Below, in pieces: positions 3,502 to 18,118 of a stretch of 64,000 nt of DNA. Position 1 is the stretch's first letter; each line of letters opens with the position of its first letter. This stretch comes from Pseudomonas sp. GOM6 (GTDB lineage Bacteria; Pseudomonadota; Gammaproteobacteria; Pseudomonadales; Pseudomonadaceae). A program made the position numbers and the translations under genes. Under the pieces are notes generated by a model. The model was not told where the DNA came from and ran no database searches. It worked only from the letters and a program-made list of their open reading frames with translations. The DNA lies in the NCBI RefSeq assembly GCF_029537485.1, contig NZ_JARPUS010000003.1:124001-188000 (forward strand). Reading direction: 5' to 3'.

Positions 3502-3546
3502 GTGCTTCACATTGCACGTCAGTGACTTTTCATTTGGTGACAAGCC
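3502..3546. promoter_or_regulatory. Conserved regulon element, copy A (upstream of the hydrolase-DUF1302 unit)
   Basis: This is one of three copies of a 40-bp element. Read on the plus strand it has GCTTC at 3504-3508, a half-site GTCAGTGAC at 3518, the invariant core TTTTCATTT at 3527-3535 and a second half-site GACAAGCC at 3539. The two GAC/GTC half-sites are 21 bp apart, two helical turns, as expected for an AraC-family protein. It lies 85 bp upstream of the start at 3416 and points the same way relative to its minus-strand gene as the other two copies. Conservation is seen directly; binding by the AraC-type protein encoded at 5350 is inferred. Confidence 0.6.
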
Positions 3547-3577
3547 GGTCGAGTGTCGACACAGTGCACCGCCCGCC

Positions 3578-5143
3578 TCAGCGCTCGAAACGGGCGACCA
3601 GTGCATGCAGGGCGTGGGCCGTGGACTCCAGCTCACCGCCCAACTGCGCCGAGCGGCTAGTGATTTGGGCGTTGTGCTCGGAGGCCTGGGAGATATTGGC
3701 GATCTGCCGGGAGATGTCCTCGGCCACCTGATTCTGCTGCGTGGCGGCGGCGGCCATCTGCTCGGCCATCTGGTGGATACGCTCGACCGCCTGGCCGATA
3801 CCGCCCAGCGCCGCCTCGGTTTCCACTACCCGCTGCACACCGCTGTGCGCCTCGTCGCTGCCCTGCCGGGCGATAGCCACCGCCTGCTCGGCCACGCTCT
3901 GCAGGCCACTGATGATGCGCTGGATGGCCTCGGTGGACTCCTGGGTCTTGGAGGCCAGGGCGCGCACCTCGTCGGCCACCACGGCGAAGCCCCTGCCCTG
4001 TTCGCCGGCGCGCGCCGCCTCGATGGCGGCATTGAGCGCCAGCAGGTTGGTCTGCTCGGCGATCGCGCGGATCATGTTGGCGGCCTGCTGGATGGACTGG
4101 GCCTCACCGGCCAGGCCCTCGACCGAGACGCTGATGCCCTCCACCGTCTGCGCCAGCTTCTCCACTACGCTGCGACTCTGCCGCGCCTGGGTGCTGCCAT
4201 CCTGGGCCAAGCGGTTGACCTGGCGCGCCTCCGCGGCGGTCAGTTGCACATGACCGGCGACCTGGGTGATGGAGGCTGCCATCTGCTGCATGGCGGTGGC
4301 CGCCATCTCGGCCTCCACGCGCTGCGCCTGCAGGGCCTGCTCGGCCTGCTGCACTAACTGGCCGTTCTGCGAGGCCTGGCTAGCAGTCAGGTCGGCATAG
4401 TCGCCGAGCAGGCCGAGGGCGGTGCGAATGCGCGCCTCCTCACTGATCAGTGCCAGCTGCAACCGCGCCACCGCGCCGCTGTCGTCGGTGTAAGTACGCG
4501 CCACCAGCTCACTGGCGAAGGCCTTGGGTGCGGCCATGGCCACCTTGAGCATGGCGCGCCTGACGAAGGCCATGGTCACCAGAGCCTGCCCCAGGCCGAG
4601 CAGCGCCAGCAGGGCGATGCCCGCACCGCCATGGCCGGCCAGCCACAGCACCGGCCCCAGCACGGCGGCCAGTATCGGCAGCAACAGGAAGCGCGCCAGC
4701 ACCCCCAGCGTCTCGCTCAACGGGGCCGCCGGCTGACCACGATTGAGCCGGGCATAAAGCGCCTGGGCACGACGCAGCTGCTCGGGCGCGGCGCGCATAC
4801 GAACCGATTCGTAGCCGACCACCCGGCCACCATCGAGAATAGGCGTGATATAGGCATTGACCCAGTAGTGGTCGCCGTTCTTGCAGCGGTTCTGCACGAT
4901 GCCCATCCAGCTCTTGCCGGCCTGGAGGTAGTCCCACATGTGGGCGAAGACTTGTGCCGGCATGTGCGGATGACGCACCAGGTTGTGCGGACTGCCGATG
5001 AGTTCCTCACGGCTGTATCCACTGACCTCGACGAACAGGTCGTTGCAGTAGGTGATGATGCCACGCGTGTCGGTGGCGGAAACCAGGCGCTGGTCGGCGG
5101 GGAAGCTGCGCTCGCGCTCGCTGATGGGCATGTTCAGGCGCAT
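3578..5143 (-). CDS. Aer-like PAS-domain methyl-accepting chemotaxis protein
   Basis: This is a 521-residue chemoreceptor without a periplasmic domain. Residues ~12-125 form an Aer-type PAS domain ([37 protein letters not shown]), which in Aer binds FAD and reports redox or energy state. Two membrane segments follow at about residues 150-195. The signalling tip ([19 protein letters not shown]) and [10 protein letters not shown] are standard for MCP cytoplasmic domains. The start at 5143 has an AGAGGA site and begins right before the PAS domain; a codon 33 bp upstream lacks one. It is divergent from an AraC-type regulator gene, with the conserved 40-bp element between them. It probably steers the cell toward conditions where the local catabolic genes are useful. 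Confidence 0.9.
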
Positions 5144-5246
5144 TGGGAGTCCTCTGACGGCCGAATGAATTCGCACAGGATTCCGGCCACCGGGCCCTGC
5201 GGCAGCAGCCGGAAAGCCTGGAATTCTAGGAAGCAGCTGTCTGCGA

Positions 5247-5292
5247 CCGCTTCGCTTTGCCTGTCAGCAGCTTTTCATTTCACGACTCAGCC
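5247..5292. promoter_or_regulatory. Conserved regulon element, copy B (between the PAS chemoreceptor and araC-type genes)
   Basis: Second copy of the 40-bp element: GCTTC at 5249-5253, half-site GTCAGCAGC at 5263, core TTTTCATTT at 5272-5280 and half-site GACTCAGCC at 5284, again 21 bp apart. It lies 103 bp upstream of the chemoreceptor start at 5143 and about 58 bp upstream of the regulator start at 5350, close to a TATAAA at 5295. This placement would allow control of both divergent genes, including autoregulation. Confidence 0.6.
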
Positions 5293-5349
5293 CCTATAAA
5301 GAGATAGCTCGCCAGCGAAGCGGGTGAATTTGACTGATAAGGAAAACCC

Positions 5350-6369
5350 ATGACTGCCCTGGCCCGCGCCGCGATACTGACGAACTACCTCGAAGTGGCA
5401 CGCCACTTTGGCCTCAACGGCCCCAAGCTGCTCGCCGAGGCAGGTCTCAATGCGGCGCTGATCAGCGATCCCAACCAGCGCATCTCGGTCGCCGCGGCCA
5501 TCGCCACCATCGAGGAGTCGGCCCGCCTGAGTGGCTGCGAGACCTTCGGCCTGCGCATGGCCGAACTACGCCAGCTATCGGATTTCGGCGAGGTCAGCCT
5601 GCTGCTTAGTCATCAACGCAGCCTGCGCGACGCGCTGCAGGTCATCGTGCAGTACCGCCACCTGCTCAACGACTCACTGGCAATCCATATCGAAGAATCC
5701 GGCAAGACGGTGATCATCCGCGAGGAGGTCATTACCGACCTGCCTGGACATAGCCGTCAGGCGATCGAACTGGCGATTGGCGTGATGCATCGCTTCTGCG
5801 CGGCCCTGCTCGGCGCCCACTGGCACCCGATCAGCGTCAACTTCAGCCACGAGGCGCCCGCCGACCTGACCGTGCACCGGCGCATCTTCGGCTGCAAGCT
5901 GGAGTTCGGTAGCGAGTTCAATGGCATCGTCTGCCAGGCCGCCGACCTCGACGCCTCCAACCCGCTGGCCAACGAGGCCATGGCACGCCACGCCCAGCGC
6001 TACCTCGACTCGCTGCAGCGCACGGCCGAGCACTCGCTGGTATTCGACGTACGCAAGGCCATCTACCTGCTACTGCCGATGGGCCGTGCCACCATTGAAC
6101 AGATCGCCCAGGCCCAGGGCATGAACGTGCGCACTCTGCAGCGCCGCCTGGAGGAAGGCGGCGCCAGCTTCAGCGAGCTAATCAACGACGTGCGCCGCGA
6201 CCTGGTGATGCGCTACCTGGAGAACCCGGGCTACTCGCTGAGCCGGATCGCCGACATGCTCGGCTACTCCATGCCCAGCTCCTTCACCCGCTGGTTCATC
6301 GCCCAGTTCGGCATGCCGCCGGCGGCCTGGCGCGCCGAGCACAAGATCGTCCCGCGCAAGGGCGTCTGA
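5350..6369 (+). CDS. AraC-family transcriptional regulator (PF12625-type sensor domain)
   Basis: This is a 339-residue regulator. Residues ~20-210 form the arabinose-binding-like domain of the OruR/ArgR-type AraC subfamily, including the ISVAAAIATIEESARLSG stretch. The C-terminal ~100 residues are a double helix-turn-helix (ATIEQIAQAQGMNVRTLQRR, then YSLSRIADMLGYSMPSSFTR and FGMPPAAWR). AraC proteins bind direct repeats about 21 bp apart, which matches the three conserved elements in this region, one of them just upstream of this gene. It is therefore the best candidate for the local pathway-specific activator. The start is the first ATG after an AAGGAAA site. The inducer is unknown. The gene converges with the SDR gene, 6 bp away. 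Confidence 0.9.
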   Translation: MTALARAAILTNYLEVARHFGLNGPKLLAEAGLNAALISDPNQRISVAAAIATIEESARLSGCETFGLRMAELRQLSDFGEVSLLLSHQRSLRDALQVIVQYRHLLNDSLAIHIEESGKTVIIREEVITDLPGHSRQAIELAIGVMHRFCAALLGAHWHPISVNFSHEAPADLTVHRRIFGCKLEFGSEFNGIVCQAADLDASNPLANEAMARHAQRYLDSLQRTAEHSLVFDVRKAIYLLLPMGRATIEQIAQAQGMNVRTLQRRLEEGGASFSELINDVRRDLVMRYLENPGYSLSRIADMLGYSMPSSFTRWFIAQFGMPPAAWRAEHKIVPRKGV

Positions 6370-6375
6370 ACCCGC

Positions 6376-7209
6376 TCATGGCCTCTGCCCGAGGGCCAGG
6401 CGCCGGGCCAGCAGGCGATCGAGCAGCCCGGTCGGCAGCCAACGAGCCAGGTGCCACATGGCATGCAGCGGATAGCGGGCCCTGACCCGCCGCGCCTCGA
6501 TCGCCGCCAACACCGCCTGGCCGACGCGCTCGACCGGCGCGCCGCGCTCGGCATTCTTCGCCACCAACCGCTGCAAGGCCTGCATGGATTCGGCATAAGG
6601 GCCGTCGGCGTAGCGTGGATCGCCCCCCGCCTTGCTCCAGATCGGCGTGCGGATGGGCCCCGGTTCGATCAGCACCACATCAATAGCGCTGGGCCTCAGC
6701 TCAAGGCGCAGCGCATCGCTGACCGCCTCCAGCGCGTGCTTGGTGGCGGCATAGCAGCCGGTCAGGGGGGTAGTCACGCGCCCGGACACCGAGCCGATGT
6801 TGATCAGCCGCGCCGGCTGGCCCGGGCGCGAGCGCAACAGCGGAGCGAAGGCCTGGGTCAGGGCGATGGCGCCGAACAGGTTGACCTCGAACATCGCGCG
6901 CATCTCGTCGAGAGGCTGCAGCAGCAGCGGGCCGCTGGGCGAGGCGATGCCGGCGTTGTTGACCAGCGCGCGCAGCGGCGCCCCGGCGAGCCATTCCTGC
7001 ACCTGGCACACGGCCCCCGGCAGGGCGGCCTGGTCGGTGACATCCAGCAGCAGCGGCTGGAAGTTGGGCCCCAGGACCAGGCGCAGGCGCTCGGCCTCGT
7101 CGGCCCGGCGCAGGGTGCCGATCACCCGGTAGCCCCGCTCGGTCAGTTGGTGTGCGCATTCCAGGCCAATGCCGGAGGATACGCCGGTGATCAGTACGGT
7201 TTCGCTCAC
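6376..7209 (-). CDS. SDR family oxidoreductase
   Basis: This is a 277-residue classical short-chain dehydrogenase/reductase. The nucleotide-binding TGVSSGIG is at residues 9-16, NNAG at 84-87, and the catalytic tetrad is represented by Ser140, Tyr153 and Lys157 (YAATK). The C-terminus (RYPLHAMWHLARWLPTGLLDRLLARRL) is membrane-associating, as in SDRs that act on lipid or steroid-like substrates. It reduces or oxidises an alcohol/ketone with NAD(P)H. It is the last gene of the minus-strand array, 15 bp after the unknown exported protein. The substrate cannot be read from the sequence. Confidence 0.88.
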   Translation of the reverse strand: MSETVLITGVSSGIGLECAHQLTERGYRVIGTLRRADEAERLRLVLGPNFQPLLLDVTDQAALPGAVCQVQEWLAGAPLRALVNNAGIASPSGPLLLQPLDEMRAMFEVNLFGAIALTQAFAPLLRSRPGQPARLINIGSVSGRVTTPLTGCYAATKHALEAVSDALRLELRPSAIDVVLIEPGPIRTPIWSKAGGDPRYADGPYAESMQALQRLVAKNAERGAPVERVGQAVLAAIEARRVRARYPLHAMWHLARWLPTGLLDRLLARRLALGQRP

Positions 7210-7224
7210 TTGATTTTCCTTGGT

Positions 7225-7965
7225 TCAGGGCAGATTCGCAGCCAGTTCGTTCAGGTCCAGCACCGCGCGACTGAGATAGAACTCCGCCCCGCCACTGGTA
7301 CTGCGCACGTTGCTCTGCAGAGGGTTGCGCACGAACTGGTAGTGACGGCGGATGCTGCGCAGCGCCGCGGCCTGCTCCGGCAGCGCCTGCTCCAGGCGCC
7401 CGAAACGCTGCCCGACGGCCTGGTCGACCTGCTGTCGCTGCGCGGCCGTCAACAGATCGCTGCGGGTCTGCGGCCAGGGGTAATGGCGCATCTGGTAGTC
7501 CAGCAGCAGGCGCGCCAGGTCGAGGCTCTGCCGCTGCAACAGGTTGACGACAGGTGGCGAACCCTGCACTGCACCCTCCTCGCCTTCCAGGGCCTGCAGC
7601 AGCGAGCGCTGCTGACTCAGCAACGGCTCCAGCAGCTGCGGATAACGCGCCCTCTCGCTAGGCGGCAGGCGGTCGAGACGGTTGAAGCTGTCCTTGAGCG
7701 CCAGCAGCGGCTGTTGCAGGGCCGCTGGCTGGCCCAGCTGCAGCACCAGGGTCTCGAGGCTGTTGAGGTGATAGTAGGCGGCCGTCAGGCCCCGTGGATC
7801 GAGGGTGCGCTGCTGCGGGTCGAAGTACAGCAGCGCACTGGCACAGAGCAGCCGGCTGCGGCTGGCGATCTCGCTCAGCTGCTGGGCGCGCAGCCGCTCG
7901 CTGGACTGCGCCGGGGACAGCAAAGGCAGCAGGCACAGCAGTACACAGAGGGAGTAACGGCGCAT
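7225..7965 (-). CDS. Exported protein of unknown function
   Basis: I do not recognise this 246-residue protein. It begins with a signal peptide (MRRYSLCVLLCLLPLLSPAQ) and is otherwise predicted to be all-helical, with many Leu, Gln and Arg residues, resembling helical-bundle periplasmic proteins. The N-terminal hydrophobic segment ends without a clear lipobox. A cysteine at about residue 41 is the only other notable residue. The ribosome site AAGGAGA directly overlaps an AACAAGAACAA tract, a likely Hfq/Crc target. It lies 35 bp after an MFS pump gene and 15 bp before the SDR gene, so it is probably in their operon. Confidence 0.65.
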   Translation of the reverse strand: MRRYSLCVLLCLLPLLSPAQSSERLRAQQLSEIASRSRLLCASALLYFDPQQRTLDPRGLTAAYYHLNSLETLVLQLGQPAALQQPLLALKDSFNRLDRLPPSERARYPQLLEPLLSQQRSLLQALEGEEGAVQGSPPVVNLLQRQSLDLARLLLDYQMRHYPWPQTRSDLLTAAQRQQVDQAVGQRFGRLEQALPEQAAALRSIRRHYQFVRNPLQSNVRSTSGGAEFYLSRAVLDLNELAANLP

Positions 7966-7975
7966 CGGGCTCTCC

Positions 7976-7986
7976 TTGTTCTTGTT
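7976..7986 (-). promoter_or_regulatory. Candidate Hfq/Crc (CA) motif overlapping the ribosome site
   Basis: On the minus strand AACAAGAACAA runs directly into the GGAGA ribosome site for the start at 7965. It matches AANAANAANAA. Crc/Hfq sites that mask ribosome sites are the classical arrangement in Pseudomonas catabolic genes. The motif is seen; the function is inferred. Confidence 0.55.
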
Positions 7987-8000
7987 GTGATGGAACTCCG

Positions 8001-9203
8001 TCAGGCACTGCCGGCCGCTAGCGGACGAGTACCACCGCGCAGCACCAGGACAAAAGCCAGCAGGCCGAGCACCTGCAGGCCGGCCATGCCGAGCGCCAAA
8101 TACAGGGGGCTGTCCAGCAGCAGCGGCACCAGCAGCGCCGCAGACAATGCGTTGCCGAGTTGCTGCAGGGTGACGAACGCGCTGGAGGCCAGGCCGCGGC
8201 GCTGCGCGAAGCAATCCATGGCCAGCAGCTGCAAGCCCGGCTGCGTCAGCATCAGGCCCAGGCCGAACAACGGCAGGGCCAGTACCGCCCAAGGCAGCGC
8301 CAGCGGCAGCCACAGCACCAGGCCGATATTCAGCAGAGCGGCGGGCAACATCACTGCATGCCCGAGCAATACACCATGACCGAGGGTCACACGCCCGACC
8401 AGCCGGTGTGCCGCCAGGGCCCCCAGCAGCAACCCTGCTACCAACGGCAGGAACAGCCAGGCGAAGGACTGCTCGCCCAGGCCCAGATGGCGCACGACGA
8501 AGGCAGGCGCCGCCAACACATAGAGGTAGATGGCCATGTTGACGCCTGCATTGGCCAGGCAGATCAGCAGGAAGCGGCCATCGTGCAGCAGCTCCAGGTA
8601 GCCAACCGTCAGCGCACGCGGCCGCAGCGACTGGCGGCGCTGCGGCGGCAGGGTCTCCGCCAGGTAGCGCCAGCAGCCGGCCAGCAGCAAGACGCCCAGC
8701 ACGGTGAGAAACACGAATACCCCGCGCCAACCCGCAAATGGCAACAGCCAGCCGCCGCACAACGGTGCCAGCGCCGGCGCCAGGCAGAACAGCATGGCCA
8801 CCAGCGCCAGCTGGCGCTGTGCCTGCTCGCCGTCGAAACGATCGCGCACCATGGCCCGCCCCACCACAATGCCGACGCCGGCCGCCAGTCCCTGGAGCGC
8901 ACGCCCCAGGTACAGCCAGTGGATGTTCGACGCCAGGGCGCAGAGTGCCGACCCCAGCACAAACAGCGCCAGCCCCAGCAGCACGTAGCGGCGCCGGCCG
9001 CAGGCATCGGCAATCGCCCCGTGGCCCAGCAGCGCTAGGGCGAAGGGCAATAAGTAGGCGGTCAGGCTCTGCTGCACCTGCGCGGCGCTCGCACCGAGGT
9101 CGGCAGCGATCGCGGCAAAGGCTGGCAGGTAGGTGGCGACGGCGAACTGGCCCAGCGAAACGAGGCAAGCCACCAGCAGCAGGAAACGGGTCGACTCAAC
9201 CAT
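8001..9203 (-). CDS. MFS transporter, Bcr/CflA-type drug efflux family
   Basis: This is a 400-residue inner-membrane protein with 12 hydrophobic segments. The loop 2-3 signature GHGAIADACGRRRYVLLGL and the motif-C-like segment in helix 5 (LAPALAPLCGGWLLPFAGWR) are typical of Bcr/CflA proton-driven exporters. The start at 9203 places the first membrane helix (FLLLVACLVSLGQFAVATYL) at the N-terminus; its ribosome site is weak, and an in-frame codon 108 bp upstream exists, so the start is uncertain. It lies 245 bp downstream of the PHA synthase gene and 35 bp upstream of the unknown exported protein. It could export a toxic intermediate or an antibiotic; no substrate can be assigned. Confidence 0.85.
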   Translation of the reverse strand: MVESTRFLLLVACLVSLGQFAVATYLPAFAAIAADLGASAAQVQQSLTAYLLPFALALLGHGAIADACGRRRYVLLGLALFVLGSALCALASNIHWLYLGRALQGLAAGVGIVVGRAMVRDRFDGEQAQRQLALVAMLFCLAPALAPLCGGWLLPFAGWRGVFVFLTVLGVLLLAGCWRYLAETLPPQRRQSLRPRALTVGYLELLHDGRFLLICLANAGVNMAIYLYVLAAPAFVVRHLGLGEQSFAWLFLPLVAGLLLGALAAHRLVGRVTLGHGVLLGHAVMLPAALLNIGLVLWLPLALPWAVLALPLFGLGLMLTQPGLQLLAMDCFAQRRGLASSAFVTLQQLGNALSAALLVPLLLDSPLYLALGMAGLQVLGLLAFVLVLRGGTRPLAAGSA

Positions 9204-9448
9204 GCTGGCCGGCGACCGCGCATTTAATAAAAAACGGCATGCTGCCTGGGCAGACGCCGAAAGCAAACCGACAGCGGGGGGACGCCAGCGGCCCAGGATA
9301 GGCCCCGCCATGGAGTAAGCGAGGCCGTCCGTTCATGACAGGCTGCACGCCTGCGGTTGTTCGAAGTCCATGCCCACAAAGGGTTGAACGGCCAAGGGGA
9401 TGAGGACTCCCACATGGCGCGCTAGCATGGCTGGATTGGGCATTGGCT

Positions 9449-11344
9449 TCAGCGCTCCAGCACGTAGGTGCCGGGCGCGGCACAAAGCGGTGGGTGCTTC
9501 TTCGAGCCGAGCGACGTGGGTGCTATGCGACTGTCGCCGGAGCGCGCGCCGATCCACTGCCGCCAGTGCGGCCACCAGCTGCCAGGCTGACGTTCGCCGG
9601 CGACCTTCAGCCAGTCTTCAGCGTCGGCCTGGATGGCACTGGCGCTGTAAAAATACGACTTGGGGTTGCCCGGCGGATTCACCAGGCTCTGCAGGTGGCC
9701 GGAGTTGGACAGGACGAAGGTGCTGTCCTCGCCGAACAGCCGGGCGGTGCCGTAGCAGCCCTGCCAGGGGGTGATGTGGTCGGTGGTGCCGCCGACCACA
9801 TAGGCGCCGACACGCACCTGGGTCATGTCGATCGGCTGGCCGGCGATCCACAGCCGGTTCGGATGGCTGAAGGGGTTCTTCTCGATCAGGTCCAGGTAGT
9901 CGGCATGCAGCTGGGCCGGCAGGCGCGTGGTGTCGCTGTTCCAGGCCAGGATGTCGAAAGCCGGCGGCTTGTTGCCGAGCAGGTAGTTGTTGACCCAGTA
10001 GTTCCAGATCAGGTCGTTGGGCCGCAACCAGGCGAACATGCGCGCCATCTCCTGGCCGCTGAGCACGCCCTTGCGCCGCGAGTTGGCCTTGGCCGCGGCC
10101 AGCGCGGCCGGGGTGGCGATCATGCCGATGCCGGTGTCGTCCATCACGGAGGGCATGTCCAGCACGCACACCGCCCAGCTGGTATTGGCCACCTTGGCGC
10201 TCTCGCCCACCGCCGCCAGCCAGCCCAGGTAGGCGGCCAGAGTGATACCGCCGGAGCAGGAGCCCCACATGTTCACGTCGGGGCTGCCGGTGATCTGCCG
10301 CGCCACGTCCACCGCCTGGTCCAGGCACTGCACGTATTGCGACAGGCCCCAGTCGCGCTGCTTGGCCGTGGGGTTGCGCCAGCTGATGACGAACAGCTGC
10401 ACGCCGCTGTCCTGGATCCACTTGATCAGGCTTTTCTCCGGCGACAGGTCGACGGCGTAGTACTTGTTGATCTGCGGCGGCGACATCACCAGCGGGCGGC
10501 TGAACACGCTTGGGGTGGTCGGTGCGAACTGCAGCAGCTCAAACATCTTGTTGCGGAACACCACCTCGCCCTTGGCACTGGCGATGTTCTCGCCCAGCCT
10601 GAACGGCTCGCTATCGACCTGCGACGGCAGGCCACGGTTGTGCAGCAGGTCGCGGGCCAGTTGGCGGCCGCCCTGCAGCAGACTGGCGCCGCCGGTGTCG
10701 ACCACCTTGCGCAGCGCCGTAGGGTTGGTCAGTAACAGGTTGCTCGGCGCCAGGGCATCGACCAGTAGTGCGGCGACGAAGCGCGCACGCCCCTTGTCCG
10801 CCCCAGGCAGCTCGGCGGTATCGATGAAGGCATTGAGTTCGCGCTCGCCTGCCAGGTAGCTCTGCACCAAGCGACGCAGAAAGGGGTTGCTCTGCCAGGC
10901 CGGGTCGGCGAAACGCTTGTCCTTCGGCGCCGGCGCCAGCTGCGACTCGCCGCTGGCGATGCGGTACAACTCGCGCAGGTAGTTGCCGGTGTGCATGCCG
11001 GCCTTGAACGGGGTACTCGCTACCGCCTTGAGCAGACTGCCAGCAGCGCCCAGCACGTCGCGTGAGCGCAGGCCGATCAGCGGTGTCACCGCCAGAGTGT
11101 GCTTCTCGGCAGCCTCGGCCAGCTCGGCAGCCGTCTCCAGGACCAGGGACCTGGCGGTCGGCTTGGCGACCTTGGTCACGACCTTCTTCGGCGCAGGCTT
11201 GCTTAACGGCTGCAGCGCCTTGTTAGGGGATTGCTTAGCGCTCTGCTGGGCGACCTTGGCGCGACTAACACGTGGCTTGCGCACGGCAGCAGTGGCCGGC
11301 GCCGCGGACGCCTCTGTCGCGGTGGATTCAGGGTTCTGCTTCAT
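9449..11344 (-). CDS. phaC: Poly(3-hydroxyalkanoate) synthase with Lys/Ala-rich N-terminal extension
   Basis: This 631-residue protein belongs to the PhaC family, which polymerises 3-hydroxyacyl-CoA into storage polyester. The lipase-like box is GSCSGG with nucleophile Cys363; the catalytic Asp522 lies in TTDHITPW and His550 in NSGHLQSLVNPPGNPKSYF. The PhaC N-domain (residues ~110-240) and the C-terminal APGTYVLE are present. It is about 60-70 residues longer than the usual Pseudomonas PhaC1/PhaC2 because residues 1-65 are an Ala/Lys/Pro-rich, histone-H1-like tail resembling that of phasin PhaF. No phaZ, phaD, phaF or phaI is adjacent; the neighbours are a YeiH-type exporter gene (34 bp upstream) and an MFS gene. 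The ribosome site is weak. The enzyme class is certain; monomer preference is not. Confidence 0.88.
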   Translation of the reverse strand: MKQNPESTATEASAAPATAAVRKPRVSRAKVAQQSAKQSPNKALQPLSKPAPKKVVTKVAKPTARSLVLETAAELAEAAEKHTLAVTPLIGLRSRDVLGAAGSLLKAVASTPFKAGMHTGNYLRELYRIASGESQLAPAPKDKRFADPAWQSNPFLRRLVQSYLAGERELNAFIDTAELPGADKGRARFVAALLVDALAPSNLLLTNPTALRKVVDTGGASLLQGGRQLARDLLHNRGLPSQVDSEPFRLGENIASAKGEVVFRNKMFELLQFAPTTPSVFSRPLVMSPPQINKYYAVDLSPEKSLIKWIQDSGVQLFVISWRNPTAKQRDWGLSQYVQCLDQAVDVARQITGSPDVNMWGSCSGGITLAAYLGWLAAVGESAKVANTSWAVCVLDMPSVMDDTGIGMIATPAALAAAKANSRRKGVLSGQEMARMFAWLRPNDLIWNYWVNNYLLGNKPPAFDILAWNSDTTRLPAQLHADYLDLIEKNPFSHPNRLWIAGQPIDMTQVRVGAYVVGGTTDHITPWQGCYGTARLFGEDSTFVLSNSGHLQSLVNPPGNPKSYFYSASAIQADAEDWLKVAGERQPGSWWPHWRQWIGARSGDSRIAPTSLGSKKHPPLCAAPGTYVLER

Positions 11345-11378: not shown

Positions 11379-12389
11379 TCACCAGCCCCAGTGCAACAGC
11401 ACCAGGACCAGCGCGGCGAGGAAGGCGGTTTCGCCGATCATCAGCAGGATCGGCTTGATGCCCACGGTGGCCAGCTCCTTGAGCTGGGTCTTCATGCCCA
11501 GGGCGGCGATGGACACCACCAGGCACCAGCGCGACAGCTCGTTTATGCCGCCTTGCACCAGGCTCGGCACCCAGCCGGTGCTGTTGATGCAGGCCAGGAT
11601 CAAGAAGCCGACGGCGAACCAGGGCAGCAGCGGCGGACGCTGGCCGCCGGTCTCGGCGCCCTGCATGCGGGTGATCATGGCGGCCACTACGATGACCGGC
11701 AGCAGCATGGCCACGCGCATCAGCTTGACCACGGTGGCGGTGTCGCCGGTCTCCGCCGACATGCTGTAACCGGCGCCGACCACCTGGGCCACATCGTGGA
11801 TGGTGGCGCCGAGGAACACTCCGGCCAGTTCGGGCGACAGTGCGAACCCGTTGGCGATCATCGGATAGAGAATCATCGCCAGGGTCGACAGCGCCGACAC
11901 ACCGATCACGGTGAACAGGGTGGCGCGTTCCTTCTGCGGGTGGTTGGGCAACGCGGCGGCCAGCGCCAGTGCTGCCGATGCCCCACAAATAGCAGTAGCG
12001 CCGCCGGTCAGCATGCCGAACAGGCGCTGGAAACCCAGCGCCTTGGCCGCCAGCACCGACAGCGAGATAGTGACCACCACCAGGATCACCACCAGCGCCA
12101 GCGGCTTCCAGCCGAGGCCGACGATCTGCTCCAGGGTGATGCGCATGCCCAGCAGGCACACACCCAGACGCAGCACGGTGCGCGCGGTGAACTCGATGCC
12201 GGCCTTGCACTTGCCCTCGCTGGCGAGAAAGTTCAGCGACAGCCCCAGCAACAGGGCGAACAGCATCACCGGCGCACCGTAATGTTCGGAGAGGAAAGTG
12301 GCTGCCGCGGCGGCCACCAGGCTGACGCTGATGCCCGGCGCCAGTTCGCGGGCGCGTAGATTGAGCTGACTGAGAGCAAGAGTGCTCAT
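11379..12389 (-). CDS. YeiH/UPF0324 family putative sulfate exporter
   Basis: This is a 336-residue polytopic membrane protein with about ten hydrophobic segments. The family signature GGATAICGASAALA sits around residues 125-138, with ATIHDVAQVVGAG later and the conserved end STALGWVP-like segment (INSTGWVP). UPF0324 proteins include TauZ, proposed to export sulfate or sulfite released in taurine and sulfonate breakdown. Here it shares an array with a TauD-family dioxygenase, which makes a link to a sulfonated substrate possible but unproven. The start at 12389 was preferred to one 126 bp upstream because it immediately precedes the conserved part and follows GAGGTT. The 172 bp before it hold no other recognisable gene. 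Confidence 0.82.
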   Translation of the reverse strand: MSTLALSQLNLRARELAPGISVSLVAAAAATFLSEHYGAPVMLFALLLGLSLNFLASEGKCKAGIEFTARTVLRLGVCLLGMRITLEQIVGLGWKPLALVVILVVVTISLSVLAAKALGFQRLFGMLTGGATAICGASAALALAAALPNHPQKERATLFTVIGVSALSTLAMILYPMIANGFALSPELAGVFLGATIHDVAQVVGAGYSMSAETGDTATVVKLMRVAMLLPVIVVAAMITRMQGAETGGQRPPLLPWFAVGFLILACINSTGWVPSLVQGGINELSRWCLVVSIAALGMKTQLKELATVGIKPILLMIGETAFLAALVLVLLHWGW

Positions 12390-12561
12390 GGCGCGGGAAC
12401 CTCGCAGTCGATGAGGATAAACATCTGAGCGCTCTCTTTCTCGACAGAACAGGTAGCGATGCTGAACATGTCGGCGATAGCGGAGAGCCGCACGCCAGGT
12501 TTGAGCAAGCAGCACAAAGCGTCCATTGGCAGCCTCTCAGCTGCCACAGGGAACCAATGAC

Positions 12562-13224
12562 TCATGACGGCTGGGTCTCACGCTCGCGTAATTTGAGAGC
12601 CTCACGCATCCCGCCCAACAACACCTTCGCCGGATGGGCACCGGACAATGCCAACTGACCGTCGAAGATGAAGTGCGGCACGCTGTCTGAGGGACAGGCG
12701 CTACCGGTGAAGGGACGTCCATCGCGATAGAGGGCCCGCGCCATGATCTCGCGCGGATAACCACAGGACACAGCGATAGCCAGTAGCGTATTGGCATCCC
12801 CGATGTTTTCACCGGAGAAAAAATGCGCAGCGAACAAGCGCTCCAGCAGGCGATCACGCTGCTCCGGAGTGCCCAGATCAATGGAATAGCGCAGCAGGCG
12901 ATGTGCATCTGCAGTATTGGGCATGTGAGTAATACGGCTGAAGTCGAAACTGAGATCGACCGTCGCAGCAGCCTCCTGCACTTGCGCCTGACGCAGGCGC
13001 ACAGCCGATTCGCTCCCCAGACGCTTCAGGTAAAACTCGTGGAACGGCACCCCCCCAGCGGGTAATTGCGGCAACAACTGCACGCCCTGCCAGTTGACGC
13101 TCACAACCTGCTCCGGCAGGAACTGCTGCAACTGCAACGTCGCCCGTTTTAGCTGACGCTTGGCAATCAGACACCAGGGGCAGATAAAGTCAAAGGCGAC
13201 ATCGATGCGCACGGCCTGGCTCAC
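12562..13224 (-). CDS. DsbA family (FrnE-like) thioredoxin-fold oxidoreductase
   Basis: This is a 220-residue cytosolic protein with the active-site motif C15-P-W-C18 in FDFICPWCLIAKRQL, and no signal peptide. Later segments (HFFSGENIGD, GVPHFIF-like SVPHFIFDGQLALSGA) are standard for FrnE-like DsbA-family proteins, which act as disulfide isomerases or glutathione-dependent isomerases on polyketide and aromatic intermediates. The start is GTG, overlapping the stop of the upstream MFS gene by four bases, so the two are translationally coupled. The tight coupling points to a role in processing or detoxifying something handled by that carrier. Confidence 0.88.
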   Translation of the reverse strand: MSQAVRIDVAFDFICPWCLIAKRQLKRATLQLQQFLPEQVVSVNWQGVQLLPQLPAGGVPFHEFYLKRLGSESAVRLRQAQVQEAAATVDLSFDFSRITHMPNTADAHRLLRYSIDLGTPEQRDRLLERLFAAHFFSGENIGDANTLLAIAVSCGYPREIMARALYRDGRPFTGSACPSDSVPHFIFDGQLALSGAHPAKVLLGGMREALKLRERETQPS

Positions 13225-14549
13225 GACTGGGCCTCCAGTGCTGCGGTAACGGCCTTTTCCTCGACACCCTCGCCCTTGAGACGGGCCATATCGGCCAAGT
13301 AGCTGCGCCCCGCCAGGAGGAAAACCGCAGCGGCACCGATGCTCACCAGCGGCACCAGCTGGAAGGCATTGTCCAGACCGATCAGGTCGGAAACCTTGCC
13401 AGTCAGCAACGGGCCGGTGGCCAGGCCCAGCAGGTTATTGGCCAGCGTTAAGGTAGCGAAGGCCGTGCCGTGCACTTTGTAGTGGGTCAGGTTGGCGACC
13501 ATCGCGCTTGCCGGACCAGTGGTGCCGGCGGCAACGAACATGCCCAGGCAGATCAGCGCCAGCTGCAGCATGCCAAACGGCAGAGCGAAGGCCAGCGACA
13601 GCATCAGACAGCTGCCCAGGCAATAGGCCATGCACAAACCGATCTTGCGCTCAGCCTTGTTTCGACTGATGCGGTCGCAAAGCATGCCGCAGAGGATCAT
13701 CCCGGCACCGCTGCACAGTACGATGATGGCGGCCACGGCGCCGGCCTTGTCGGTGCTCATGCCGTAGAAGCGGTTCAGGTAGCTGGGCATCCAGACGATT
13801 ACGGTGCCGCCGACAAACAGCTGCAAGCCGCTGGCGACATAGGCGCAGAGTACAGAGCGGCTGGAGTACAGGGTGCGCAGCGGGCGACCAACCTTGTCCG
13901 CCGCCGCACTGGCGGCCTTGGCCACGCGCTGTGGGGCGATCTTCGCCTCGCGCACCACGATCGGGTAGAGCACAGCCAGGGCCAGGCCGAAAAAGGCCAT
14001 GCCGGCGAAGGCCCAGCGCCAGCCGAAATACTGGGCCATAGCGCCACCCAGGGCCATGCCCAGCACCGAGCCGAACATACCACCAGAGATGAAGGCGCCG
14101 GACAGGGTGGCGCGCATCTCGCGCGGGAATACCGAGACCACCACGGCGATGCCAACGCTACCGTAAGCAGCCTCACCGACACCGACCATGAAGCGTGCCC
14201 AGAACATCTGTTCGTAGCTCTCAGCCAGGGCGCAGCCCAGGGTTGCCAGACTCCAGATCACGGCCATGATGGTCAGACTTCTGATCCGCCCGAAGCGGTC
14301 GGCCAGCAGCGACAGCGGGAAAGTCAGCAGGCCAACCATCAACGCGACGATGCCACTGAGCAGTCCCAGTTGGGTGTCGGAGAGCGCCCACTCGGCCTTG
14401 AGGCTTGGGAACACGGCATTGAGCACCTGCCGCGACATGTAGTCGGAGATCAGCAGGCCGAAAGTCAGGGCGAAGACAATCCAGGCATAGCGCCGCGCTA
14501 TGCCCTTGGACGTGTCCTCGATATCGTCATCAATATGATGTGCGGCCAC
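13221..14549 (-). CDS. MFS transporter (spinster/organic anion-type)
   Basis: This is a 442-residue, 12-segment inner-membrane transporter. SLLADRFGRIRSLTIMAVIW is the loop 2-3 signature and ISDYMSRQVLNAVFPSLKAEW is typical of the spinster/ACS-like MFS carriers that take up organic acids. The start codon is GTG, six bases after an AGGAGG. The 5' leader carries an AACAATAACAA tract 29-39 bases upstream of the start, as seen in Crc-controlled uptake genes. It overlaps the DsbA-like gene downstream and lies 250 bp after the BKACE gene. It is the best candidate for the pathway's uptake system; the substrate is unknown. Confidence 0.88.
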   Translation of the reverse strand: MAAHHIDDDIEDTSKGIARRYAWIVFALTFGLLISDYMSRQVLNAVFPSLKAEWALSDTQLGLLSGIVALMVGLLTFPLSLLADRFGRIRSLTIMAVIWSLATLGCALAESYEQMFWARFMVGVGEAAYGSVGIAVVVSVFPREMRATLSGAFISGGMFGSVLGMALGGAMAQYFGWRWAFAGMAFFGLALAVLYPIVVREAKIAPQRVAKAASAAADKVGRPLRTLYSSRSVLCAYVASGLQLFVGGTVIVWMPSYLNRFYGMSTDKAGAVAAIIVLCSGAGMILCGMLCDRISRNKAERKIGLCMAYCLGSCLMLSLAFALPFGMLQLALICLGMFVAAGTTGPASAMVANLTHYKVHGTAFATLTLANNLLGLATGPLLTGKVSDLIGLDNAFQLVPLVSIGAAAVFLLAGRSYLADMARLKGEGVEEKAVTAALEAQS

Positions 14550-14800
14550 GGCAGCCTCCTCGTTGTACAGCTAGTGCTTGTTATTGTTGTAGGTCGTCAT
14601 CGACGCTCGGCAAAGGCCTCTGGCCAGCCCGGTAGGGCCGCCGGCACCGCGTGCGATGCCCCGGTTCGTGGCCCGGGCGCCGCACGCGGCAGAGACCTTT
14701 GCCCAGCGGCGTAGGGCGATCCACGACCTGACCTGCGGGGATCGCCGGAAAGCTCGGAACGGGCGTACCAAGGCACGCCCACCCCACGCCAGGAGGTCAA
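14550..14800. other. 251-bp spacer between the BKACE and MFS genes
   Basis: This stretch holds no convincing gene. It contains two inverted repeats readable in the minus-strand transcript, GGGCGT/ACGCCC around 14761-14780 and GGCGAT/ATCGCC around 14714-14745, but neither is followed by a T-run. They may act in attenuation or mRNA processing and stability between the two genes. The CA motif lies at its left end. Confidence 0.4.
14578..14588 (-). promoter_or_regulatory. Candidate Hfq/Crc (CA) motif in the MFS leader
   Basis: On the minus strand CTACAACAATAACAAGCAC contains AACAATAACAA, a match to AANAANAANAA, in the leader of the MFS gene starting at 14549. The surrounding bases resemble those at the start of the DUF1302 gene (AATAACAACAAGCA). 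The motif is seen; Hfq/Crc control is inferred. Confidence 0.5.
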
Positions 14801-15850
14801 TCACTTGTGCAGGAAGCCCTGCTGGCGGCCCTTGGGGTTAGGTGCGAAACCATTGGCGGCCAGAGTCTCCTCGACGGTGTCGTAGAACACGCCGATCTTG
14901 AGGATCTCGCGGGCCTCCTGGCCGTTAGCCACCGGGCGGCCGAACTCCTTGGCGATACGCACCAGCTGCTGGATCTGCTCGACCGTGGTCATCTTGCGCG
15001 AGCGATCCTGGGTCCAGATGTTGTCCTCGATCCCGCAGCGCACGTGCAGGCCCATGGCCATCCCTATCATGTTGATCGGCAGCACGTTGAGCATGGTGCT
15101 CTCCACGGTCAGCATGGTGCCGTCCGGGATGGCGCGCAGGAAGTTGGCCAGGCTGTAGATATGCGGCTGATCCATGCCCCCGCCGATGGCCACCCAGTTA
15201 CAGACCAGCGGGCCCTTGTAGCCACCGCGACGGATCAGGCGCTCGACCGACTCGTAGCTGTTGATGTTGTAGAACTGGAAGGCACTCTGGATGCCGGCTG
15301 CGGAGAGACGCCGAACGTGCTCCTCGATAAAGCCCGGGCCTGAGGGCACGATCATCTCGCGGTAGGCCTCATGGGTCTCATGAGCCATGGAGGTGCCGGC
15401 GATATCGCGCACATCCATCTGCTCGCAGACGTTCATCTGGGTGGTGTTGACGGTCACGGTCACCTGATCGGGCTTGGGGTCCAGCTCGGCCAGCATGTGG
15501 CGGGTGTCGTCGTGCAGCCACTTGGCCGCCGCACCATCTTCCGGGGGCGCGAAGGAGATCGAGCCGCCCACTTGGATGACCATGTCCGGCACGGCTTCGC
15601 GCACGCCGGCGATCAGCTCGTTGAACTTGGACAGGCGCTTGGAACCCTTGCCGTCCAGCTCGCGAACGTGCAGGTGCAGTACGGAAGCGCCGGCTTCGTA
15701 GCAGTCGACGGCCTTCTGGATCTGCTCCTCCATGGTCACCGGAATGTCTTCCGGGAAGTCGGAGGGGAACCATTCCGGGCCATAGGGCGCAGCGGTGATG
15801 ACCAGCTTGTCCTGGTTTTCAGGGAAGAGCGAACCGTCTAGGAAGTTCAA
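14801..15850 (-). CDS. 3-keto-5-aminohexanoate cleavage enzyme family protein (BKACE)
   Basis: This is a 349-residue TIM-barrel enzyme of the BKACE (DUF849) family. The metal-binding pair His59/His61 is in SVLHLHVRELDGKGSKRL, and the C-terminal GLHVRCGIEDNIW is the family signature containing the third metal-site Glu. BKACE enzymes condense a beta-keto acid with acetyl-CoA and release acetoacetate plus a shorter CoA thioester, for example in lysine fermentation or carnitine (dehydrocarnitine) breakdown. The start is TTG at 15850, with a GAGGT site. It follows a TauD-family gene by 51 bp. The beta-keto acid used here is unknown, but the family makes this the strongest catabolic marker of the cluster. 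Confidence 0.9.
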   Translation of the reverse strand: MNFLDGSLFPENQDKLVITAAPYGPEWFPSDFPEDIPVTMEEQIQKAVDCYEAGASVLHLHVRELDGKGSKRLSKFNELIAGVREAVPDMVIQVGGSISFAPPEDGAAAKWLHDDTRHMLAELDPKPDQVTVTVNTTQMNVCEQMDVRDIAGTSMAHETHEAYREMIVPSGPGFIEEHVRRLSAAGIQSAFQFYNINSYESVERLIRRGGYKGPLVCNWVAIGGGMDQPHIYSLANFLRAIPDGTMLTVESTMLNVLPINMIGMAMGLHVRCGIEDNIWTQDRSRKMTTVEQIQQLVRIAKEFGRPVANGQEAREILKIGVFYDTVEETLAANGFAPNPKGRQQGFLHK

Positions 15851-15901
15851 TTCTGTTACCTCGAATGATTGGAAGTGAGTGCTCCGCCAGAGCGCTCCGA
15901 C

Positions 15902-16750
15902 TCAGAAGGGCTTGTCGCCGATGATCCCCGCGCGCTCCATCTTGCGATGGCACGGTGGGTAGTCCATGACGGCGTAATGCTGGGTACTGCGGTTGTCCCA
16001 GATCGCCACGCTGTTGGGCTTCCAGCGCCAGCGCACCTGGTATTCCGGGATGTAGGCCTGGCCGATCAGGTAGCGCAGCAGGTCGCTGCCGCCCATGCTG
16101 AAGTCCTGGCCGTAGCGCACGTGCTCGGGCGTGTGGAAGTTGCTGAAGTGGGTGGTGAAGGCGTTGACGAACAACACCTTCTCGCCGGTTTCCGGATGAG
16201 TACGCACCACGGGGTGCTCGGCATCCGGGAACTGCGCCTTGAGCGCCAGGCGCTTTTCAATGGGCATGGCGGCGCCGAAGCTGGCCTCGATGCTGTGGCG
16301 TGCGCGCAGGTTGGCGATCTTGGCCTTAACTTCGTCCGGCAGCATCTCGTAGGCCAGCGCCATGTTCGCCCACATGGTGTCGCCGCCCACCGGCGGACAC
16401 TCCACGCAGCGCAGCACGCAACCCATGGGCGGGATGTCGCGCCAGGTGGCATCGGTATGCCAGGCGTTCTCGTAGCGGTCGTTGGGCTGCTCGGGGCTCT
16501 TGTAGATGCGCACCAGGCCAGGATGATCCGGGTCGCTGCCGGCCACCGGGTGGTCCTCCAGCTCGCCGAAACGGCGGGCGAAGGCCACGTGGTCGGCGCG
16601 GCTGATGTCCTGGTCACGCAGGAACAGCACCTTGTGCCTGAGCAGCAACTGGCGGATCTCGGCGAACAGCTGTTCGTCGCGGGCGGCGTCGGCCAGGTTG
16701 ATGCCGCTGATTTCCGCGCCGATGGCGCAGGTCAGTTGTTCGACTTGCAT
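15902..16750 (-). CDS. TauD/TfdA family Fe(II)/2-oxoglutarate-dependent dioxygenase
   Basis: This is a 282-residue enzyme. The iron ligands are His98 and Asp100 (AWHTDATW) and His258 (NRSTQHYAV); an Arg near 269-273 binds 2-oxoglutarate. Family members hydroxylate and so cleave taurine, other sulfonates, phenoxy acids or betaines. The start at 16750 is preceded by AGGAGG. The gene begins 10 bp after the quinone oxidoreductase gene and precedes the BKACE gene, so oxidation followed by beta-keto acid cleavage is a plausible order of reactions. The UPF0324 exporter further down might point to a sulfonate. It is not an exact TauD by eye, so no symbol is given. Confidence 0.9.
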   Translation of the reverse strand: MQVEQLTCAIGAEISGINLADAARDEQLFAEIRQLLLRHKVLFLRDQDISRADHVAFARRFGELEDHPVAGSDPDHPGLVRIYKSPEQPNDRYENAWHTDATWRDIPPMGCVLRCVECPPVGGDTMWANMALAYEMLPDEVKAKIANLRARHSIEASFGAAMPIEKRLALKAQFPDAEHPVVRTHPETGEKVLFVNAFTTHFSNFHTPEHVRYGQDFSMGGSDLLRYLIGQAYIPEYQVRWRWKPNSVAIWDNRSTQHYAVMDYPPCHRKMERAGIIGDKPF

Positions 16751-16760
16751 GGCGGCCTCC

Positions 16761-17741
16761 TCAGATGACGAAGATCGACGAACCGGTGGTCTTGCGCGAC
16801 TCCAGGTCGCGATGCGCCTGCACCGCATCCTGCAGGGCGTAGTGCTGGTTGATTTCGATCTTGATCCGGCCGCTGCCGACATGATCGAACAGCTCGCCGG
16901 CCAGGGCAGCCTTCTCGGCCGGGTCGGCGATATAGTCGGCCAGCGCCGGACGGGTCATGTACAGCGAGCCCTTCATCGCCAGCAACTGCGGATTGAAGCC
17001 TTCGATCGGACCGGAGGCTGTACCGACGCAGACCAGCAGGCCGCGGCGCTTGAGCGAATCCAGCGAGCCCATGAAGGTGTCCTTGCCGACGCTGTCGAAC
17101 ACTACGTTGACGCCGACGCCGTCGGTCAGCTCACGCACGCGCCCCGCGACATCCTCGTGGCTGTAATTGATGGTGTGATCGCAGCCATGGGCACGGGCGA
17201 CATCCGCCTTGGCATCGCTGGAGACGGTGCCAATCACAGTCAGGCCAAGCAGCTTGGCCCACTGCGAGACAATAAGGCCGACCCCGCCGGCGGCGGCGTG
17301 CAGGAGGATGCTGTCGCCTTCCTTGAAGTCATGGATGCGGCGCATCAGGTAGGAGGACGTCAGGCCGCGCATGGTCATGGCCGCGGCGGTCTCGAAAGCG
17401 ATCGAGTCGGGAATCCGGATCAGCGGCGCGGCCGGCACCAGGCGCTCGGTGCTGTAGGCGCCGAGGGTGTTGACGAAACCGGTGTAGGTCACCCGGTCGC
17501 CGACCGCGACGTTATCCACGCCCGCGCCGAGGGCCACCACCACGCCGGCCGCCTCCACGCCGATGCCATTAGGCAGCGGGATCGGGTAGGTGCCGTTGCG
17601 GAAGTAGGTGTCGGCGTAGTTCAGACCCACGGCGACATGGCGGATGCGCACCTGGCCGGGACCGGGGTCGCCGACCTCGACATCCTCGTAGCGCAGCACT
17701 TCCGGTCCCCCGGTCTCATAGAAGCGGACGGCTTTGGCCAT
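16761..17741 (-). CDS. NADPH:quinone oxidoreductase, zinc-less MDR type (QorA-like)
   Basis: This is a 326-residue medium-chain dehydrogenase/reductase. The catalytic-domain opening GGPEVLRYEDVEVGDPGPGQ, the NYADTYFRNGTYP segment and the nucleotide-binding AAAGGVGLIVSQWAKLLG are those of the quinone oxidoreductase (QOR) subfamily, which lacks the zinc-binding cysteines. It reduces quinones or alpha,beta-unsaturated carbonyls with NADPH. It is the first gene of the catabolic array; GGAGAACAGGC precedes its ATG, and copy C of the conserved element lies 74 bp upstream. The physiological substrate could be an enone intermediate of the pathway; that is inference. Confidence 0.9.
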   Translation of the reverse strand: MAKAVRFYETGGPEVLRYEDVEVGDPGPGQVRIRHVAVGLNYADTYFRNGTYPIPLPNGIGVEAAGVVVALGAGVDNVAVGDRVTYTGFVNTLGAYSTERLVPAAPLIRIPDSIAFETAAAMTMRGLTSSYLMRRIHDFKEGDSILLHAAAGGVGLIVSQWAKLLGLTVIGTVSSDAKADVARAHGCDHTINYSHEDVAGRVRELTDGVGVNVVFDSVGKDTFMGSLDSLKRRGLLVCVGTASGPIEGFNPQLLAMKGSLYMTRPALADYIADPAEKAALAGELFDHVGSGRIKIEINQHYALQDAVQAHRDLESRKTTGSSIFVI

Positions 17742-18118
17742 GCCTGTTCTCCAGTCTCAGATTCTTGTAGGCGCCTGTAGCAGCGTGGATCGACTGTAGG
17801 GCCGTGGCACAGCGCGTGCTTCTCATCGAACGACAGCAACTTTTCATTTCATGACACTGACCACCTCAGCATTGATGTGCAGATCAGCGACACAGCCAGT
17901 CGAAGTAGCAGCTGGATTTTCCCGCCATTTTTACCGGCTATTCGGCCACCCCCTGCCAGAGCCACCAGTGAAGAGGGCGTGGTCTCGTGCGCTTCGTCGT
18001 CAATGGATCGCCGCCGAGCTTTTGACTCGTTAAGCTCTGCGCAGGCCAATGGCCAGCATTGAAGACGATAACCTCGGTGGCGCTAGACCGGCACCGCACA
18101 AGAACGGAACCCACCGTC
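17742..18118. other. Divergent intergenic region between qor-like and chemoreceptor genes
   Basis: These 377 bp separate two divergent genes. The left part carries copy C of the conserved element. The remainder has no convincing ORF, terminator or known sigma-28 chemotaxis promoter that I could recognise. It should hold the promoters for both directions. Confidence 0.5.
17816..17862. promoter_or_regulatory. Conserved regulon element, copy C (upstream of the qor-tauD-BKACE array)
   Basis: Third copy of the 40-bp element: GCTTC at 17818-17822, half-site GACAGCAAC at 17832, core TTTTCATTT at 17841-17849 and half-site GACACTGAC at 17853, 21 bp apart. In this copy the two half-sites are most alike (GACAnnnAC against GACAnnGAC), which best shows the direct repeat. 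It lies 74 bp upstream of the qor start at 17741 and in the same relative orientation as copies A and B. Confidence 0.6.

Follow-up and report, generated by a model that had tools for sequence, protein, structure and literature searches.

A 41-bp direct-repeat element that is very probably the operator of an AraC-family regulator in Pseudomonas sp. GOM6

A stretch of 64,000 nucleotides of the Pseudomonas sp. GOM6 genome (contig NZ_JARPUS010000003.1, positions 124,001 to 188,000; here called the window) carries three copies of a 41-bp element on its minus strand, copy A at 3503 to 3543, copy B at 5248 to 5288, and copy C at 17817 to 17857. Copy A lies upstream of a minus-strand unit encoding a serine hydrolase (PF06821; 2862 to 3467), a DUF1302 protein (789 to 2777), and a DUF1329 protein whose gene (1 to 751) runs off the window. 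Copy B is upstream of the minus-strand gene for a methyl-accepting chemoreceptor with a PAS domain (3578 to 5176), which we count as a member of the regulon, and adjoins the plus-strand gene 5350 to 6369. The latter encodes an AraC/XylS-family regulator (PF12625 Arabinose_bd plus HTH_18), the proposed activator. Copy C stands upstream of a minus-strand run that starts with a Qor-type NADPH:quinone oxidoreductase of the zinc-binding dehydrogenase family (16761 to 17741), a TauD/TfdA-family 2-oxoglutarate dioxygenase (15902 to 16753), and a beta-keto acid cleavage enzyme (BKACE; 14801 to 15850). The dioxygenase probably starts at 16753, the point from which it aligns with solved relatives, within a longer open reading frame (ORF) from 16882. 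The run continues with genes for an MFS transporter (13221 to 14549), a DsbA-fold protein (12562 to 13224), a YeiH-type (Cons_hypoth698) putative sulfate exporter (11379 to 12515), and a PhaC-type polyester synthase with the Cys box GSCSG (9449 to 11344).

An earlier description made from the DNA letters alone (the sequence-only reading) had placed the three copies correctly, and they align without gaps, with 25 identical columns over a span of 38. It had given the shared core as nine bases; the core exists but is ten bases long, CTTTTCATTT, and occurs three times on the plus strand of the window and never on the minus strand (about 0.015 expected from base composition). On the minus strand the element approximates TGTCATnAAATGAAAAG-N4-TGACGTCCAATGTAAAG, a degenerate direct repeat whose units recur every 21 bp. 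Read along the minus-strand genes, an A-rich 17-bp unit ending in AAATGAAAAG is followed by 4 bases and a second unit ending in GAAG. Repeats 1 and 2 span 3526 to 3542 and 3505 to 3521 in copy A, 5271 to 5287 and 5250 to 5266 in copy B, and 17840 to 17856 and 17819 to 17835 in copy C, and in all three copies they read in the direction of the genes behind them, as had been noted. The same reading had proposed GWCAG/GAC half-sites preceded by a GCTTC box. Its 21-bp period was right, but these are parts of the two 17-bp direct repeats rather than separate boxes: the GCTTC box closes the second repeat unit, and the TTTTCATTT core closes the first. The full repeat unit had been overlooked, as had the fixed spacing to a −10 hexamer and the sulfur logic described below.

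When a profile of 28 related sites was compared with itself, the strongest self-match peak fell at a shift of 21. The element is therefore a two-turn direct repeat, the form expected of an AraC operator. A two-repeat pattern derived from the copies, allowing up to three mismatches, found only these three places in the window (mean of 0.00 in 100 shuffles), a search that is circular as a discovery test because the pattern was written from the copies themselves. A looser 19-base pattern matched 82 places in the genome with up to three mismatches, against 28 for a reversed control; it was too permissive, and a trained model was used instead.

For this model, regulator orthologues were defined as matches to the 5350 protein at E ≤ 1e-60, and 199 genomes of the same genus were searched. 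A matrix built from the window copies was run over thirty orthologue loci (L031 to L060, of which L031 is that of the window) and found a site in 28 of the 29 foreign loci; at the remaining one (L045), a site of 42.4 bits was present on inspection. A sequence-only model, R1, was then trained on 28 foreign sites beside regulator orthologues and on none of the window copies. In the 4.3-Mb genome of the window, R1 recovered copy A at 47.0 bits (E 1.1e-11), copy C at 35.9 bits (E 3.4e-8), and copy B at 25.5 bits (E 6.3e-5), the next match there having an E value of 0.84.

With a genome scored as having a site when R1 matched at E ≤ 0.01, R1 matched 34 of the 199 genomes, namely all 31 that carry the regulator, the window's own genome among them, and 3 of the 168 others (Fisher p 3e-33, with kinship ignored). 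A wide occurrence of the element in genomes lacking the regulator, named beforehand as evidence against the proposal, was thus not found. A TauD orthologue (E ≤ 1e-100) was present in exactly the same 31 genomes. In the three genomes without the regulator (G164, G135, and G108), the AraC proteins detected at E ≤ 1e-20 are 25 to 31% identical to the 5350 regulator. The match in G164 is partial and borderline (21 of 41 positions, E 0.00996). Behind the G135 site lies a qor gene, the only cluster gene called in the vicinity. The G108 site has no cluster gene behind it and lies beside a GntR-aminotransferase gene, and members of this family are at most two genes away from qor in 9 named loci. Both sites look like remains of a lost cluster. 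Orphan elements of regulator-less genomes are seen at L124 (10001 to 10037) and L125 (10001 to 10040), one without a cluster gene and one before a lone qor, and have the appearance of relics left by deletion of a cluster. Among 369 genomes across the class, the regulator was found in the window's own genome only, and so were full-length R1 matches. Ten other genomes gave 11 partial matches (17 to 26 of 41 positions, E 0.0027 to 0.0098), which exceeds the 3.7 genomes expected by chance, none of them full length. These large genome scans used stricter filters, with which some weak matches are lost.

The position of the element relative to the regulator gene was examined in named genomes, using the best 80 of 99 regulator loci (mostly Pseudomonas, plus Aeromonas, Citrobacter, Pluralibacter, and Polaromonas). 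In 78 of the 80 loci, the 350 nt upstream of the regulator contain a site above 15 bits, and in 73 the site exceeds 30 bits; the weakest counted site scored 15.1 bits (L176). In L148, other genes separate the hydrolase from the regulator, and the full site stays with the hydrolase. In Aeromonas, Citrobacter, and Pluralibacter, whose regulators have diverged, the neighboring site is kept. It also occurs beside diverged regulators of Cupriavidus (57% identical, 27.3 bits) and Polaromonas (60% identical, 28.4 bits), and a 46%-identical regulator of Caballeronia has a 34.5-bit site; the beta-proteobacterial relatives were reached via a plasmid search in which two of the ten listed matches were examined. 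Next-best scores in the Cupriavidus, Caballeronia, and Polaromonas loci ranged from −18 to 16, with scores above zero apparently belonging to variants of the repeat. Weak variants of the form TGnCCCnAAATGTnAAG were seen at L245 (13142 to 13182 and 19843 to 19883), L211 (12039 to 12079), and L176 (7997 to 8037), some of them close to paralogous AraC genes. The whole group of AraC paralogues may use one operator grammar with changed letters.

Sites were pooled from 111 sources (the window and L124 to L233), with duplicates of site plus downstream sequence dropped, giving 182 above 16 bits and 172 of at least 30 bits. Directly behind these 172 sites, a simple gene caller placed hydrolase (53), Qor (53), DUF1302 (12), the sulfite dehydrogenase subunit SorA (8), PAS chemoreceptor (7), PhaC (6), DUF1329 (4), MFS (2), and YeiH (2) genes, along with the window's own three; no gene was called behind 22, some of which precede real genes with miscalled starts. 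The cluster has a conserved order, DUF1329-DUF1302-hydrolase, site, regulator, and YeiH-DsbA-MFS-BKACE-TauD-Qor, site. In L134, the DUF1329 gene is followed by genes for BNR/YCF48 and MMPL-family proteins. Sites on contigs other than that of the regulator precede PhaC-type genes (6 sites), SorA genes (8 sites in 7 loci), and PAS chemoreceptor genes (2 sites, L131 and L218). DUF1329 genes have a site on a contig other than the regulator's in L131 and L223 and, about 74 kb away on the same contig, in L233. Relatives of PhaC with their own site on another contig are 75 to 76% identical to the window's protein in L214, L225, L229, and L231 and 49 to 50% identical in L224 and L227. In L215, a site 1.1 Mb from the regulator stands before qor-tauD and then an acyl-CoA dehydrogenase gene, and in Aeromonas a distantly related chemoreceptor (35 to 37% identical) lies behind the hydrolase and a CoA ligase-sized gene. 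A gene that sits within the run in one genome can have its own site in another, a pattern characteristic of a genuine regulon.

The operator, its conservation, its link to the regulator, the promoter spacing, and the gene set were observed by computation. Co-occurrence, the sites upstream of 78 of 80 regulator genes, and the recurrence of the same families behind distant sites support the earlier suggestion, made from the adjacency of copy B and the two-turn direct repeats, that the 5350 protein is the likely regulator. We consider it very probable that the element is the operator of this protein, acting as a class II activator of the regulon.

Several observations weigh against this assignment. 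The co-occurrence counts overstate independence because 28 of the 31 genomes supplied an R1 training site and linked genes move together: the regulator, operator, and most targets are linked, and joint gain or loss of one cluster could explain much of the co-occurrence. Truly independent support comes from the smaller number of sites distant from the regulator. In P. oryzagri, a second copy of the regulator (L183, 10001 to 10972; 77% identical) has no site nearby and no cluster genes called within 10 kb, and a 47%-identical regulator paralogue of Caballeronia (L246) has only a 1.1-bit candidate. In L220, L221, and L232, good elements near 5001 with a −10-like box have no clear downstream gene; small or unannotated targets are possible there. 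Lastly, repeat units 1 and 2 are identical at just 10 (copy A), 9 (copy B), and 12 (copy C) of 17 positions. At the three window sites, a repeat finder listed no repeat of at least 12, whether direct or inverted, and its silence on the direct repeat is explained by the units being only 9 to 12 of 17 alike within single copies.

What the regulon is for was approached through its enzymes. Among 9 genomes carrying SorA together with the regulator, sites precede SorA-SorB in 8; of the 2 that carry SorA without the regulator, neither has such a site. SorA of L133 (653.6 bits, NCBIfam cutoff 600) and SorB of L219 (111.1 bits, cutoff 93) exceed the thresholds of their families, and SorA resembles the sulfite:cytochrome c oxidoreductase 2blf (524.6 bits). 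SorAB differs from the known sulfite dehydrogenase in being a member of a catabolic regulon here, away from the regulator. The TauD-like protein belongs to the TauD/TfdA superfamily (PF02668, 226.6 bits, cutoff 27), and its H142-T-D144 and a later H in WDNRSTQH align with what we take to be the Fe-binding H-x-D ... H of TauD. It shares the fold family of the TauD/AtsK 2-oxoglutarate dioxygenases; the best solved relative is 5vn6, annotated as a taurine dioxygenase (548.8 bits), followed by TauD (3pvj/1gqw), PlaO1, and, lower in the ranking, alkylsulfatases. In E. coli TauD, Tyr73 and Asn95 presumably hold the amine of taurine, while His70 and Arg270 presumably contact the sulfonate. The equivalents of the former pair are Ala114 and Glu138 here, and those of the latter are kept. 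The enzyme is predicted not to be a plain taurine dioxygenase because it misses the curated cutoff for that enzyme (NF007104, 255.1 against 313) and the Tyr73 and Asn95 positions are changed. Its gene also differs in context, lying in a run with BKACE under a proposed AraC-type activator, whereas TauD and AtsK are normally under sulfate starvation control. The YeiH-type protein matches PF03601 (235.1 bits, cutoff 24.5). Fifty-three named loci had calls for all three of qor, tauD, and BKACE; 45 of them also have a YeiH-type gene, and the other 8 include the Citrobacter and Pluralibacter loci.

The best-studied relatives in the TauD family release sulfite from sulfonates. A TauD-family oxygenase together with BKACE, YeiH, and sites before SorAB therefore points to sulfonate catabolism, and we lean toward sulfonate breakdown as the function of the regulon. 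The products would serve in sensing, envelope transport, and catabolism of an organosulfonate, probably a fairly hydrophobic one: the TauD-like oxygenase would release sulfite, SorAB would oxidize it where present, YeiH may export sulfate, and BKACE and a CoA-transferase would take the carbon skeleton. Speaking against a sulfonate function, the association of SorA with the regulator and site is weak by itself (Fisher p 0.055); G015 has the regulator and SorA yet no site before SorA; and the TauD-like and YeiH-type proteins fall short of their curated cutoffs, the former as given above and the latter with 159.8 against 232.6 bits for TIGR00698. SorA (E ≤ 1e-150) is present in 11 of the 199 genomes and was not found in the window's own, so that the sulfite argument is by analogy there.

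The most probable alternative is that the regulon is real and its substrate is not a sulfonate. The TauD-like enzyme would then hydroxylate another carboxylate or an ether, and SorAB and YeiH would serve general sulfur handling. Enzymes of the TauD family act on many substrates, the residues expected to hold the taurine amine are replaced, SorA is rare, and His70 is also kept in PlaO1 and is therefore not diagnostic. Set against this are the element before SorA in all but one of the genomes with both SorA and the regulator, the frequency of YeiH-type genes in the named loci, and the conservation of the equivalents of the sulfonate contacts His70 and Arg270. We regard a nonsulfonate substrate as a substantial possibility, though less probable than a sulfonate.

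Within the sulfonate reading, the pairing of tauD with BKACE suggests a more specific route. The second site of L130 and one site of L136 each precede a TauD ORF (7124 to 8161 and 18879 to 19727; 69% and 79% identity to that of the window), with a diverged BKACE gene (67% and 69% identity) following immediately. A second, diverged tauD-BKACE pair behind its own element suggests that the two enzymes work as a unit. Other loci contain genes for a CoA ligase (Citrobacter L180), an acyl-CoA dehydrogenase (L134 and L215), and, near phaC, 3-oxoacid CoA-transferase subunits (L137 and L175). The PhaC-type protein has the Cys nucleophile of a polyhydroxyalkanoate (PHA) synthase in a lipase-like box (GSCSG at residue 361) and scores below the cutoff for class II PHA synthases (TIGR01839, 694.6 against 855.4). 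Together these enzymes indicate that acyl-CoA and acetoacetate are made. Since a beta-keto acid from TauD is what BKACE would need, and since the tauD-BKACE pair recurs in L130 and L136, we tentatively propose a previously undescribed route for carboxylates whose beta carbon bears a sulfonate, as might be left, for example, when a secondary alkanesulfonate surfactant or sulfonated lipid stalls in beta-oxidation. The TauD-like oxygenase would hydroxylate the carbon of the C-S bond, whereupon sulfite would leave and a beta-keto acid form; BKACE with acetyl-CoA would cleave the latter to acetoacetate and a shortened acyl-CoA; 3-oxoacid CoA-transferase and PhaC would use the products; SorAB and YeiH would dispose of the sulfur; and the PAS receptor would provide taxis. 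A carnitine-type BKACE reading, prompted by a GbdR-like neighbor, was dropped once the sites before SorA pointed to sulfur. Sulfosuccinate was also considered as a substrate; it had no support in a literature search, and oxaloacetate would not need BKACE.

The placement of the element relative to predicted promoters bears on how the 5350 protein would act. On the minus strand of the window, −10-like hexamers lie 18 nt beyond copy A (TACTGT, 3479 to 3484), 19 nt beyond copy B (TAGAAT, 5223 to 5228), and 18 nt beyond copy C (TACAGT, 17793 to 17798). Among the 172 pooled sites, a TANNNT hexamer starts exactly 18 nt past column 41 in 148 and at 17 to 20 nt in 160, while none has one at offsets of 3 to 16 or 23 to 44 nt. 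The count of 148 states conservation and is not a significance test because the sites are related by descent. Eight of the 12 sites lacking TANNNT are linked to SorA, and 7 of these have GATACT or AATACT in the equivalent place. Given TANNNT 18 nt past the element, the second repeat reaches the −35 position. A 17-bp spacer would set the −35 on the last bases of repeat 2, AAGCR, which is not TTGACA-like, so activation by touching RNA polymerase is most likely. A promoter-proximal repeat at the −35 position and no consensus −35 are the layout of an activator-dependent class II promoter of AraC-type activators. The sequence has this layout, including the fixed −10 spacing, with start sites that are predicted only. 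The arrangement resembles those of E. coli AraC at araBAD, where I1 and I2 are direct repeats and I2 overlaps the −35, and of P. aeruginosa ArgR, whose operator consists of TGTCGC-N8-AA direct repeats: two direct repeats about 21 bp apart, the proximal one at −35, each formed by a TGTC-type box and then an A-rich box. It differs in sequence and in the genes controlled, and all that it shows of a looping operator is a frequent extra half-site.

Binding, activation, operon extent, inducer, and substrate are inferred from the DNA and its translations. In the model that we favor, two subunits of the 5350 protein, each with two helix-turn-helix motifs, would occupy the pair of 17-bp direct repeats, which lie 21 bp or two turns apart on one face of the helix. 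The proximal repeat would end at the would-be −35, 17 nt before the −10 hexamer, and, once an inducer occupied its N-terminal Arabinose_bd domain, the protein would contact RNA polymerase and thereby activate transcription (class II). Within the window, the regulon would comprise three units: hydrolase-DUF1302-DUF1329, the PAS chemoreceptor gene, and the run qor-tauD-BKACE-MFS-DsbA-YeiH-phaC on the minus strand.

Repression by the 5350 protein instead of activation, or a dual role in which it does both through a loop to an additional half-site close to the start of its own gene, is unlikely by comparison. In its favor, a further single 17-bp unit (up to 3 mismatches) lies upstream of the regulator in 39 of the 80 named loci, against 2 of 80 on the opposite strand. 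It falls between the full element and the regulator start (for example, L144 9912 to 9931 and L147 9914 to 9932), except in L148, and is possibly an extra half-site for autoregulation or looping. However, a site upstream of the −10, with repeat 2 ending at a −35 without consensus, is the layout of an activator, and a repressor site would more often cover the −10 or the start.

Comparison with known proteins places the 5350 regulator in its family and apart from characterized members. Its C-terminal double helix-turn-helix (HTH_18, 64.8 bits, cutoff 33.6) and its N-terminal ligand and dimerization domain (PF12625, 164 bits, cutoff 27.6) are both recognized, and it aligns with VirS (PDB 8rcx) through both domains, over residues 3 to 330 (E 3.4e-27). 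It matches the QhpR model (NF049968) at 198.2 bits, under the equivalog cutoff of 250, and is likewise under the cutoffs of all 12 NCBIfam equivalogs listed (GliR, 131 against 570; CypR, 90.2 against 500). The targets of VirS, QhpR, GliR, and CypR differ from the genes behind this element. A second AraC-type regulator in the window (21552 to 22541; DJ-1/PfpI plus HTH, FtrA/GbdR-like) is 3.7 kb from copy C, and direct repeats would be expected of its operator as well. Binding of the element by this GAT-type protein is very improbable, largely refuted by the absence of co-occurrence with sites: its orthologues (E ≤ 1e-100), found in 29 genomes, are present in 5 of the 31 genomes with the element and regulator and in 24 of the 168 others (Fisher p 0.78).

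That the element is a mobile or structural (REP-like) repeat or an RNA signal copied before genes, as its repeated intergenic occurrence in one genome might suggest, is just as improbable, since only three copies lie below E 0.84 in 4.3 Mb, the sites have no inverted repeat of at least 12 but a direct repeat in the profile and a fixed distance to a −10-like box, the same gene families recur behind the element at different genomic places, and the element tracks the gene for a DNA-binding protein. The inverted-repeat and RNA readings were set aside on the repeat finder result and the direct repeat of the 28-site profile; Rfam was not searched.

We class the regulon as an AraC-family regulon with its operator, and the pathway attached to it is possibly new. 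No paper on this regulon was found in the open-license text of PMC, a search whose coverage excludes most subscription journals and which does not establish absence from print. Three unexplained repeats become a 41-bp operator, precise and transferable, for which a candidate regulator is named and from which regulon membership can be read in dozens of Pseudomonas, Aeromonas, and enterobacterial genomes. Envelope genes of the DUF1302, DUF1329, and MMPL families, a chemoreceptor, and a PHA synthase are tied to one inducible, probably sulfonate-directed pathway, and a promoter-regulator pair is at hand for finding the inducer. Next to qor and divergent from copy C lies another methyl-accepting chemotaxis gene (18059 to 19564), at most a candidate member of the regulon. 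Beyond phaC, minus-strand genes for a Bcr/CflA-type MFS transporter (8001 to 9311) and a short-chain dehydrogenase (6376 to 7209) are possible distal members of the operon.

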